64,000 nucleotides of DNA from Candidatus Eremiobacterota bacterium (GCA_019240525.1 JAFAYE010000001.1:2577300-2641299), one strand, 5' to 3'; numbered from the stretch's first letter, positions 18,125-21,113 are shown. Made by a program: numbers and translations. The notes: generated by a model not told the origin, from the sequence alone.

Positions 18125-18156
18125 AGTCGTTAACCGACGCAAGCAGTCCCTCTCGC

Positions 18157-18164
18157 CCCTGGGC
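18157..18164. repeat. Candidate 8-bp target duplication, left copy
   Basis: CCCTGGGC directly flanks the left inverted repeat, and the same 8 bases lie at 21106-21113 beside the right one. IS1595-family elements typically duplicate 8 bp. G/C runs here make the exact ends uncertain by one or two bases. Confidence 0.6.
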
Positions 18165-18187
18165 GGGTCTGAATCACTTGACGTAAG
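18165..18187 (+). repeat. Left terminal inverted repeat of the transposon
   Basis: GGG followed by the 20-base shared sequence at 18168-18187. The outermost bases differ by one or two from the right end. Confidence 0.75.
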
Positions 18188-18213
18188 TATAGAGCATGGG
18201 CTAGCTTTTGTTG

Positions 18214-18245
18214 TTGACAGGGCGATATATGGGCCGTGCTACACT
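18214..18245 (+). promoter_or_regulatory. Promoter for the 58-aa cargo gene, leaderless
   Basis: TTGACA (18214-18219) and TACACT (18240-18245), spacing 20, or TGCTAC at spacing 17. TACACT ends 6 nt before the ATG, so the mRNA would begin at or near the A of the start codon. No Shine-Dalgarno sequence is present. Confidence 0.5.
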
Positions 18246-18251
18246 TGTCGC

Positions 18252-18428
18252 ATGGCCCGTGAACCACTCAAACTCATGCCGATCGACGATCTAAAGAAGG
18301 CCGCGGCCGCCCTGGCTCAAGTGACCAAGGAAGATATAAAAAAGGCCGCCGAGAGGGCAAAGGCCCCTGACTATCCGGCCGGCAAGCCGAGGAACGAACC
18401 TGCAAAGAAAAATCCCCGGAGGGCCTAG
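18252..18428 (+). CDS. 58-aa lysine-rich cargo protein
   Basis: ATG 18252 to TAG 18426-18428. Residues 10-40 look like one or two amphipathic helices rich in Lys and Ala (DDLKKAAAAL...DIKKAAERAK), followed by a proline/lysine tail. Support is a consensus-like promoter and position inside the transposon. Could be an antitoxin-like or nucleic-acid-binding protein, but nothing proves it. Confidence 0.5.
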   Translation: MAREPLKLMPIDDLKKAAAALAQVTKEDIKKAAERAKAPDYPAGKPRNEPAKKNPRRA

Positions 18429-18477
18429 GCTCAAGCTCCTGGATTCGACGTTCGTACCTTACCGCCGAATGACCGAA

Positions 18478-18629
18478 CTCACGACGTGCTCATCTCGTTG
18501 TAGCCGACCGCCATAGCGGGCGAAAACCACCCCCTCAAAAAACCCTTATTCTATCGAGCTTTTTCCGCTATTTTTGGCCTTCTCCATTCGCTATGGCGGT
18601 CGGCTACAACGAGATGAGCACGTCGTGAG
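18478..18629. repeat. 41-bp perfect inverted repeat with 70-bp spacer
   Basis: Left arm 18478-18518 and right arm 18589-18629 are exact reverse complements over 41 bases; the arms contain GTTGTAGCCGACCGCCATAG. The spacer is AT-rich compared with its surroundings. No duplicated flanks are seen. It could be a small non-autonomous element, a recombination product or a very stable RNA stem if transcribed. Confidence 0.9.
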
Positions 18630-18680
18630 GCAGGCTATTCAGTGGTAAAGTACGAATTTTTGGCCTGCGAGCGGACAGAG

Positions 18681-18713
18681 AAACGCCCTCGGACAGGTCG
18701 GTCCGGGGCGTTT
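18681..18713 (+). ncRNA. Stable hairpin, possible part of a small RNA
   Basis: AAACGCCC (18681-18688) pairs with GGGCGTTT (18706-18713), and CGGAC with GTCCG inside it; one T is bulged and the loop is AGGTCG. A second hairpin with a T-run follows 24 nt later, so a small RNA of roughly 100-140 nt ending at 18780 is plausible. Alternative short frames overlap here on both strands without convincing features. Confidence 0.4.
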
Positions 18714-18736
18714 GACACGATCTCCGACGCATACAG

Positions 18737-18780
18737 AGACGCCTGGTCGAATTTGGGAGAGCGGGCGTCTTTTGTTTTTT
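18737..18780 (+). terminator. Intrinsic terminator inside the transposon
   Basis: AGACGCC (18737-18743) pairs with GGCGTCT (18764-18770), followed directly by TTTGTTTTTT. The T-run is the best in the window. It would end a transcript read on the + strand through the hairpin region. Confidence 0.7.
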
Positions 18781-18857
18781 GTTACGCCTGCGACGACGCA
18801 TCGTCGTACGCGCCCGCTTCGCCTTAGGTGCGGTCCATCCTGCACCTACTCGAAAGT

Positions 18858-19124
18858 CTAAACGTGCGGAGTATATTTTCTTAAGATTGCCTCCGAGGGA
18901 AGCCTCCCAGCCTCTATTGCGGCTCTTGCACCCGGCTCGTCAACGAACACATCCTCCGGTGGAAACGGGACAGGCGGCGGGGCAAGACGGTGACGTAAGA
19001 GATGTCTAAAATAAGGGTCGGCCGTTAACTCGATCGCCCAGGGATAAACGGCCCATATTCTGGCGAAAGTGAAGCCTCCGCCAAAGGTCCGGGCGATAAC
19101 TCTTGTGCCTCGCTCCATGCTCAT
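18858..19124 (-). CDS. 88-aa hypothetical cargo protein
   Basis: A short protein with a beta-rich, glycine-containing start (RTFGGGFTFARIWAVYPWAIEL), then an acidic, proline-rich part (PPVPFPPEDVFVDEP) and a C-terminal helix. Family not recognised. It is divergent from the DUF5343-like gene across a region holding repeated TGCYTAAR motifs. On its strand TTGAAA-N16-TAGCTT ends 7 nt before the ATG, supporting expression as a leaderless message. An ATG two codons later is an alternative start. Confidence 0.55.
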   Translation of the reverse strand: MSMERGTRVIARTFGGGFTFARIWAVYPWAIELTADPYFRHLLRHRLAPPPVPFPPEDVFVDEPGARAAIEAGRLPSEAILRKYTPHV

Positions 19125-19141
19125 ACTCTGTAAGCTACTTA

Positions 19142-19211
19142 TGCCTAAGGACTTTTCAAGTGCTTAAGCGAAAAAAGTCACTGCCTAAACCTTGCGCAGC
19201 GAGCTTAGGTA
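19142..19211. promoter_or_regulatory. Iterated TGCYTAAR motifs in a divergent promoter
   Basis: TGCCTAAG at 19142, TGCTTAAG at 19161, TGCCTAAA at 19182 and a reversed copy CTTAGGTA at 19204. The spacings of 19, 21 and 22 nt are about two helical turns. They lie between the starts of the 88-aa gene and the DUF5343-like gene and overlap their likely promoters, as expected for a cooperative repressor site. Confidence 0.5.
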
Positions 19212-19258
19212 TGATACGCTCAGCGGACCTCGCGATAGGTAGAGTAAGGAAGTGAACT

Positions 19259-19993
19259 ATGGAAACCCAAGATAGAAGGCCAGCTCCCCCTTATTTGAGC
19301 TTCACTACGCTCAATAATTTCATAGATGGGCTGGCCGTCCACATGCCGACCCGTATAGATAAAAGCCTTATGAAGTCCATGTCTGGGGCCTCGCAAGCGG
19401 CCCTGGTATCGGCCTTGGACTACCTTGGGCTGAGAACCAGCGACGACAAGCCGAGCGCCGATTTAGTCAAGCTCGCAGGCGTCGCGGCTGCGGATCGCGG
19501 GCCTCTTTGGAAAGTGCTTATTACTGCCAAATACCCCTTTCTGTTTGAAGGGGACTTCGATCTAAAGCGAGCGACGCAAGGGGAGCTTGACGAACGTTTC
19601 CGCAGTCTAGACATCTCAGGCGAAACGATTAGAAAATGCGTGGCGTTCTTCGTGGCAGCAGCGCAGGCAAGTGGTATTGAGATATCACCTCGCTTTCGCT
19701 CGATCAAAAGCCGCGCGCCGCGCTCACCAGGAGCCCGGACTTCGAGCCCCCGTAGGCGTCGCCGGCAAGAGCCAGCAGCAGAGTCACCGCGCTCTACCCA
19801 ACCCGATAACAGCTCGTACCTCGCGGCTTCAGTGAGTTTCGATGGGGGCGTTACGGCCGAGCTTCGCATTATGGGAAATGCCTTCGCCCTATCCGCTACC
19901 GATCGGGAAGCCCTATTTGGCTGGATTGACAAAATGAAGTCCCATAAGTCAAGCGGGAGCACCGATTCTAAGTCGGCCACTCCCGCATCGTAA
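19259..19993 (+). CDS. DUF5343-like domain protein (transposon cargo)
   Basis: A 244-residue soluble protein. The N-terminal 140 residues (PPYLSFTTLNNFIDGL, MPTRIDKSLMKSMSGASQAALVSALDYLGL) have the pattern of DUF5343 proteins. A basic, disordered linker (about 150-185) precedes a small beta-rich C-terminal part. ATG 19259 has AAGGAAGTGA upstream. No catalytic motif is visible. Possible roles include DNA or RNA binding or a defence or maintenance function, but these are guesses; the domain has no established activity that I know of. An intrinsic terminator follows. Confidence 0.75.
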   Translation: METQDRRPAPPYLSFTTLNNFIDGLAVHMPTRIDKSLMKSMSGASQAALVSALDYLGLRTSDDKPSADLVKLAGVAAADRGPLWKVLITAKYPFLFEGDFDLKRATQGELDERFRSLDISGETIRKCVAFFVAAAQASGIEISPRFRSIKSRAPRSPGARTSSPRRRRRQEPAAESPRSTQPDNSSYLAASVSFDGGVTAELRIMGNAFALSATDREALFGWIDKMKSHKSSGSTDSKSATPAS

Positions 19994-20087
19994 AGCGCCT
20001 GTTTACCTCATTGGAAGGAGGTGAGGGTCCACAGTGCAGGTACCCGTTAAGTCGCGCTGGCGCGGCGAACCCAAAACAAGCTAGCCT

Positions 20088-20119
20088 GGGCCCCGTTTCG
20101 GCGGGGCCCCTTTATTTTA
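20088..20119 (+). terminator. Intrinsic terminator after the DUF5343-like gene
   Basis: GGGCCCC (20088-20094) pairs with GGGGCCC (20103-20109), followed by CTTTATTTTA. It lies between the convergent cargo gene and the transposase remnant. Confidence 0.75.
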
Positions 20120-21058
20120 CTTGGCCGTCAAGGCTTTGTACGTCAGACGCTTTCCGTCTGCGCCTTTCGTCGCTTTGGCAAAGCGCGGGCCATCGCGGTT
20201 CTCTCGTTCGTTGAAGCGGAAGGCTTGTTCTGCGAGATAGCGATCGAGATGGCGGGCATTTACGTGCGTGTACGTTCCGCCGATCGTGCGCTTCAATACA
20301 GCCCAGAAACACTCGATATTGTTCGTGTGAACATTGCCCTTGACGTATTCGTGCAGCATATGGTTCACCGACGCATGACGTAGTAGTTAATGTCGGTGTA
20401 GAGCTTGGACGTATCGGTGTAGAGCGTGGCGTCCTGGTCTATGCTGTCGAGAATCTTCGGCAGCAGCGACTTATGGGACACGTGAGGCACCCCCCCAGGC
20501 GCGAACGCGGCCCTTGCGCTCCACCATGCCAAAGACGGCGGCTTTCGAGGAGTAAGCCGTCTGACCAGCCGCTTCAATAGCACGACGGCGCTTCTTGCTC
20601 ATTTTCTCCGACTTGTCGCCAATGTAGGCTTCGTCCGCTTCAATCGTTCCCGTTAGCTTGTCGAAGGTTTCAGTTTCCATCGCAAGTCGAATCCGGTGCA
20701 GCATAAACCACGCCGTTCGCTGCGTAACCTTAAGCGCACGACCAAGCTCATGCGACGAAATGCCATTACGGTTGCTAGCGATCAGCCAGAAGGCAGGCAG
20801 CCACTTGGAAAAACCGATTGGCGAGTCCTCGAAGACGGTACCGACTTTCGCCGTGAATTGCTGCTTGCAATCGTTGCAATACCAGCGCCGTTGCTTCGCC
20901 ATGTACGCGACGGCAAGCGAACCGCAAGCGCGGGGACACGCCACGCCATGCGGCCAACGCATACCGACGAAGAAATCGTGCGCGACCTTCTCATCGGCAA
21001 ACATACGGACCGCTTCGATCATCGTTTCGGGGACCTCAGGAGCCTTGCGCTTGTCCAT
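20117..21058 (-). pseudogene. IS1595-family (ISXO2-like) transposase, two frameshifts
   Basis: Three frames together make one transposase of about 310 residues. Frame 1 (21058 to about 20490) has the N-terminal zinc ribbon (CNDCKQQF), the IS1595 block WLPAFWLIASNRNGISSHELGRAL (first 20: WLPAFWLIASNRNGISSHEL) and the first catalytic acid in EADEAYIGD. Frame 2 (about 20500-20375) has KSLLPKILDS and YTDTSKLYTD with the second acid. Frame 3 (20368-20117) has VKGNVHTNNIECFWAVLKR with the last acid. The first break is at a C7 run (20490-20496), the second near 20375-20395. Either both are real lesions or homopolymer-type assembly errors. Confidence 0.88.
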
Positions 21059-21081
21059 ACGCTTATCTTACCAGCCAGGCT

Positions 21082-21113
21082 CACTTACGTCAAGTGATTC
21101 AGAACCCCTGGGC
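21082..21113 (-). repeat. Right terminal inverted repeat and target duplication
   Basis: The complement of the left repeat lies at 21082-21101, then a few bases and CCCTGGGC at 21106-21113. A further CCCTGGG follows at 21114-21120. Confidence 0.7.

Follow-up and report, generated by a model that had tools for sequence, protein, structure and literature searches.

What does the insertion upstream of rpoC in a Candidatus Eremiobacterota genome carry, and do the genes aboard belong together? We analysed a 64,000-nucleotide stretch of this genome (GCA_019240525.1, JAFAYE010000001.1:2577300-2641299; hereafter the window), in which an IS1595-family element of 2.94 kb occupies positions 18165-21106, between a DUF6496 gene and rpoC. 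Its cargo includes two divergently transcribed genes, one encoding an 88-aa protein (p88; 18858-19124, minus strand) and the other a 244-aa DUF5343-related protein (19259-19993, plus strand). An initial annotation had described the locus as a compact, self-regulated module moved by the transposase and as a candidate for an undescribed system. Here we report that the two genes form a pair that has been joined to transposon backbones several times, and we weigh what this pair may do.

The gene pair is swapped between transposon backbones

We surveyed 149 genomes of the phylum Eremiobacterota, together with viral contigs, for relatives of the pair. Profile searches placed p88 in 3/149 genomes and the DUF subtype in 3/149, the same three genomes in both cases, with the two genes always adjacent and always within the inverted repeats of an IS1595 element. 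They were never found apart, and the survey thus gives no sign of the separate, unassociated cargo genes on which the module of the initial annotation would have foundered. Outside the window, the pair was present in three IS1595 elements and in one IS1-like element inside a phage. Inverted repeats were found for the elements at loci L008 and L009, and locus L012, on a viral contig, has the gene order of the window, an intact transposase and inverted repeats of its own (p88 52% and DUF-type protein 58% identical to those of the window). L013-L016, which represent one phage population, hold a related pair within a 3.7-kb element; this element encodes an IS1-like transposase and has inverted repeats of its own and a 9-bp duplication (CCTTCCCCT).

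The four IS1595 pair-bearers were scattered across a tree built from 34 transposases, and their monophyly was rejected (approximately unbiased (AU) test, p = 4.3e-23). The window transposase grouped with those of L057, L058 and L059 (99/99), all of which lack the pair; it is 78% identical to that of L059. These results indicate that several separate events, at least three of them counted from the starred branches of the tree, joined the pair to IS1595 backbones. Because the pair-bearing transposases do not form a clade, the pair is swapped cargo and not a fixed part of transposition. A selected accessory function, defence for example, would be expected to be captured repeatedly, which makes the pair a concrete target, only two genes in size, for assays of phage resistance or plasmid stability.

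The same data bear on the possibility that the pair controls or assists transposition, its products acting as accessory factors for the element or repressing it. The pair is always within transposons, and coupled expression is suggested at L008, where the DUF gene overlaps the beginning of the transposase gene in the same orientation. However, only a few of the ~30 IS1595 elements examined in the phylum carry the pair, their transposases are scattered in the tree, and the pair also moves with an IS1-like transposase. The window and L008 also differ in how the transposase is oriented to the pair, and the constant companion of these elements is another gene (s49, described below). We consider a role in transposition unlikely.

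Predicted structures and relatives of the two proteins

The p88 model (predicted local distance difference test, pLDDT, 91) forms a small barrel; among solved structures it matched Tudor domains best, those of FMRP and SND1 (probability 1.00, template modelling (TM) score about 0.51, E 0.017, an E-value that is not significant by itself). The likeness to these Tudor/SH3-like barrels is one of predicted fold; p88 differs in being small and bacterial. CsrA-like profile matches of p88 (E 0.05) were not believed, as the fold search prefers Tudor. The model of the 244-aa protein was good for residues 10-140 only. This region is all helical; the basic linker is disordered and the beta-beta-alpha tail weak. 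From this model, the N-terminal domain is probably a winged helix.

The initial annotation called the longer gene 'DUF5343-like', a label that holds through a relative and not for the window protein itself, which had no Pfam match at E<=1. The L008 protein (genome G095), 40% identical to it, matched DUF5343 (PF17278) above the Pfam cut-off (28.6 bits, cut-off 27), and other relatives scored 24.9 (L016) and 17.2 bits (L009). Since the direct match lies in a relative, the DUF5343 link reaches the 244-aa protein via intermediates only. The window protein differs from the family in standing on a divergent branch, with the basic linker and the extra C-terminal beta-beta-alpha part.

Genome G099 has a DUF5343 gene of a second kind as cargo of an IS1595 element. 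All DUF5343-type genes found in the phylum belonged to such elements (window, G095, G028, G099) or to a decayed one (G032). The decayed element (L081 8324-10650) lies beside SOS mutasome genes and retains a repeat with AATACTTGAC, a companion gene, the DUF5343 gene, an NYN-like gene and a transposase tail. A tblastn search of the DUF-type proteins against plasmids and phages gave no match; scanning bacterial genome contigs with a single protein likewise gave none, and a scan with the alignment returned only two known Eremiobacterota loci. Matches in G061 and G062 (E about 8e-4) were rejected, being out-of-frame and within unrelated genes. A search of one literature library found no paper on DUF5343 or on the PADLOC candidate PDC-M34; the pair offers a first handle on this unstudied domain.

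Operator-like sites in the divergent promoter

The 134-bp divergent promoter (19125-19258) contains the operator-like sites that the initial annotation had described as an iterated operator of the 88-aa gene. The motif TGCYTAAR occurs four times in the 64 kb, three of them here, at 19142 (TGCCTAAG), 19161 (TGCTTAAG) and 19182 (TGCCTAAA), followed by one inverted CCTAAG at 19204, so that the operator-like array found by motif scan spans 19142-19209. Iterated hexamers were also present in the corresponding promoters of L012 (CCTAAG x4, p 0.006), L008 (TGTGCC x4, p 0.003) and L009 (GTTACC x4, p 0.010), with p-values from dinucleotide shuffles of each region, the best hexamer being taken per shuffle as the sole correction for the number of hexamers; no iterated array was seen at L016. 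The style of the array is conserved while its letters differ, as co-evolution of one of the two proteins with its operator would predict.

A small gene beside a DNA-binding-like gene, an autoregulatory-looking operator and a mobile context would also suit a toxin-antitoxin or addiction module, in which one protein is toxic, the other neutralises it and the element is retained in the genome. Panacea antitoxin genes are moreover the cargo of two sister elements. Against this, the genes are divergent and form no operon, no toxin fold was recognised (p88 resembling a Tudor/SH3 barrel), and no toxin or antitoxin family of Pfam or NCBIfam was matched. An addiction function therefore seems doubtful to us, somewhat more so than a role in transposition.

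Selection on the cargo and its putative function

All three cargo genes of the initial annotation are present as intact open reading frames (ORFs), of 58, 88 and 244 aa, and their codon positions bear the mark of selection. Compared with the nearest relative, L012, identity at third positions was far below that at first/second positions for the DUF gene (0.36 vs 0.65/0.77), p88 (0.39 vs 0.59/0.68) and the 58-aa gene (0.33 vs 0.70/0.65). These results indicate that the three are genuine genes under selection, kept by purifying selection since they diverged from those of L012. The unlike codon use noted at the outset was also observed, with scores of -0.09, -0.28 and -0.09 for the cargo against 0.14 to 0.25 for host genes; the transposase scored 0.12 to 0.21, and the element has a G+C content of 55.7% (vs 60.0%). 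An ordinary decaying insertion, whose chance cargo brings no benefit and fossilises with its transposase, would fit the broken transposase, the single copy and the atypical codon use, but is improbable given three intact cargo ORFs held by purifying selection and a pair joined to transposons at least three to four times.

The reading that we rank above transposition control, toxin-antitoxin and lack of function, and hold tentatively, is that the pair forms an accessory module of the defence type, self-regulated and swappable between transposons. We infer the defence function from circumstantial evidence, namely repeated capture, protein-level selection, foreign codon use, the defence- or conflict-like cargo of sister elements, and matches of relatives to the PADLOC candidate PDC-M34A. 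The last were weak for the DUF proteins of L016 (3.6e-6) and L009 (0.001) and strong for the G099 protein (E 3e-14), whereas the window protein (no match up to E 10) and the L012 protein (no match) lie outside that model. In the proposed mechanism, the DUF5343-related protein would bind the iterated sites and repress both genes, and the Tudor/SH3-like p88, with RNA, DNA or a protein as its ligand, would be its partner or sensor. Repression would be lost when a phage or foreign DNA invades, which would switch the module on and protect the host. The module would then spread by benefiting its carrier, as may hold for the restriction, dCTP-deaminase and Panacea-type cargo of sister elements.

Several results weigh against a defence-type module. 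The window cargo proteins matched no PADLOC, PHROG, NCBIfam or Pfam family, and none of the cargo has a recognisable catalytic domain. The fold search with the 244-aa model gave nothing significant (the third match was BrxA of BREX, E 0.61, TM 0.33-0.38), and the winged-helix assignment comes from predicted helices only. The window's own 6-mer statistic was likewise not significant, its enrichment being confined to the degenerate motif.

The carrier and its insertion site

The initial annotation's IS1595 element with cargo between inverted repeats was confirmed. The left terminal inverted repeat (GGGTCTGAATCACTTGACGTAAGT; 18165-18188, plus strand) and the right one (21083-21106, minus strand) are 24 nt long and 96% complementary, and the ACTTGAC motif of the left repeat is common to the inverted repeats of ~25 IS1595 elements in the phylum. 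The sequence CCCCTGGGC (8-9 bp) stands on both sides (18156-18164 and 21105-21113, the right copy overlapping the outermost 1-2 bases of the aligned repeat), fitting the 8-bp target duplication of IS1595. In G038, a relative of the same genus, the gap between the DUF6496 gene and rpoC is ~270 bp, compared with ~3.1 kb here, which indicates that the insertion site upstream of rpoC is empty in relatives. We counted one copy of the element in the genome; contigs of metagenome-assembled genomes (MAGs) may conceal others. MAGs of the same phylum are the closest relatives of the window.

The transposase (20117-21058, minus strand) matched PF12762 (DDE_Tnp_IS1595), PF12760 (N-terminal zinc ribbon) and the NF033547 equivalog domain, all above cut-off. 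It spans two frames: relative to L059, there is a 1-nt insertion in a G/C run near 20490 and a short deletion near 20375, ~115 bases apart, which jointly restore the frame. With the shifted stretch inside the DDE domain, this copy is probably immobile and its transposase, judged from the reading frame, probably inactive. The proposal that the cargo is 'moved by the transposase', which left these frameshifts unmentioned, thus fails for this copy; membership of the IS1595 family holds despite the broken frame, activity does not. The 1-nt insertion taken alone could be a sequencing error, but a homopolymer error as the whole explanation was rejected, since the short deletion is also present.

Related IS1595 transposases occurred in 38/149 genomes, in elements that share the inverted-repeat core ATATACTTGAC, measure mostly 1.9-5.6 kb and nearly all have other genes aboard. 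IS1595 elements with passenger genes are termed tIS, for example tISCpe8 and MTnSag1/tISSag10 (Siguier et al. 2009, as cited in PMC5704250). The window element is an IS1595-family tIS, with the p88 and DUF5343-related genes, which are not transposition genes, between its repeats. It shares with known tIS the IS1595 DDE transposase with zinc ribbon, the short inverted repeats, the 8-bp-type target duplication and the unrelated genes inside. It differs in its broken transposase, its s49 companion gene and its cargo, an undescribed divergent pair that serves neither resistance nor mobilisation. Because tIS have already been described, the carrier is not new.

A near-constant companion gene

The 58-aa gene (18252-18428, plus strand) encodes a small basic protein of a family that we call s49 (VPK-motif), identified from its ORF, its tblastn and profile relatives and its codon-position pattern; it matched no family in Pfam or PHROGs. 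By tblastn, a short basic protein with a VPK or VTK motif was present in 24/28 delimited IS1595 elements (for example L050 394-522, L051 4304-4423, L054 6877-7014 and L068 3598-3762). Of 35 good matches to an s49 profile in the phylum, 30 lay no further than 5 kb from an IS1595 transposase; of the remaining five, at least two were at contig ends and one was in the decayed IS1595 element of G032. By these searches, the 58-aa gene is an almost constant companion of the phylum's IS1595 elements and stands outside the cargo pair. In this little-studied phylum, IS1595 elements thus act as small interchangeable carriers, with one transposase, one constant companion and swapped cargo.

Long inverted repeat, hairpins and tRNA genes

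The 41-bp perfect inverted repeat of the initial annotation (18478-18518 and 18589-18629) was found within a 68-nt imperfect one, with arms at 18451-18518 (plus strand) and 18589-18656 (minus strand) identified by sequence, repeat search and fold. The loop is 70 nt, and the fold energy has a z of -13. No second copy was detected in the 149 genomes or the viral contigs, and the repeat, private to the window copy, may be a nested element or a duplication made by a recent template switch. The compact module first described is accordingly narrowed to the divergent pair, with the 58-aa gene (a standard IS1595 companion) and the private repeat both outside it. An Rfam 'mir-2001' match to the window hairpin was rejected, being under the gathering score and of a kind that any perfect hairpin would explain.

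The element has two further hairpins on the plus strand. That at 18681-18713 (AAACGCCC...GGGGCGTTT) was identified by fold and sequence; that at 18737-18782 (AGACGCC...GGCGTCT, then a T-rich run) resembles an intrinsic terminator by its fold, with a loop exceeding the limit of the terminator scan. The same scan identified a strong terminator, GGGCCCCGTTTCGGCGGGGCCC with a T-rich tail, at 20088-20109 (plus strand).

Two of the five relatives, L012 and L016, have a tRNA gene inside the element, while L008 and L009 have neither a tRNA nor a long repeat. The L012 tRNA has an Arg-like body (55.7 bits), the anticodon CGC and an anticodon stem with two mismatches; its anticodon arm recurs as an inverted copy of 22 nt, 60-80 nt away (L012 4420-4442 and 4497-4573). 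The L016 gene (5848-5933; also in L013-L015) is Leu-like (56.6 bits) with the anticodon TTA, which reads the stop TAA and marks the tRNA as an ochre suppressor, and stands beside the DUF5343/p76 pair. In the window, the 41-bp inverted repeat occupies the position of the L012 tRNA and no tRNA is present there; ARAGORN tRNAs called in the window element at relaxed settings were rejected as chance structures. The L012 and L016 tRNA genes may be separate cargo. It is highly improbable, in our estimation, that the DUF5343/Tudor pair works with an element-encoded structured RNA (the odd tRNA or the window hairpin) as an RNA-linked mobile system, for example as a decoy or a suppressor that counters attacks aimed at tRNA or at blocking translation.

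Other cargo of IS1595 elements in the phylum

IS1595 elements of the phylum also carry a dCTP deaminase, an N6/N4 methyltransferase with an Mrr-like domain, SocA/Panacea (twice), PIN, an SDH-type protease and DUF3892 (twice). The loci of this other cargo are L008 420-1028, L009 11498-13207, L062 6093-6701, L070 6539-7117, L068 3780-4295, L050 3652-4593, L064 6455-6724 and L079 3883-4239. At L063 2864-8473 (G106), an IS21-like transposase/ATPase pair is nested within an IS1595 element.

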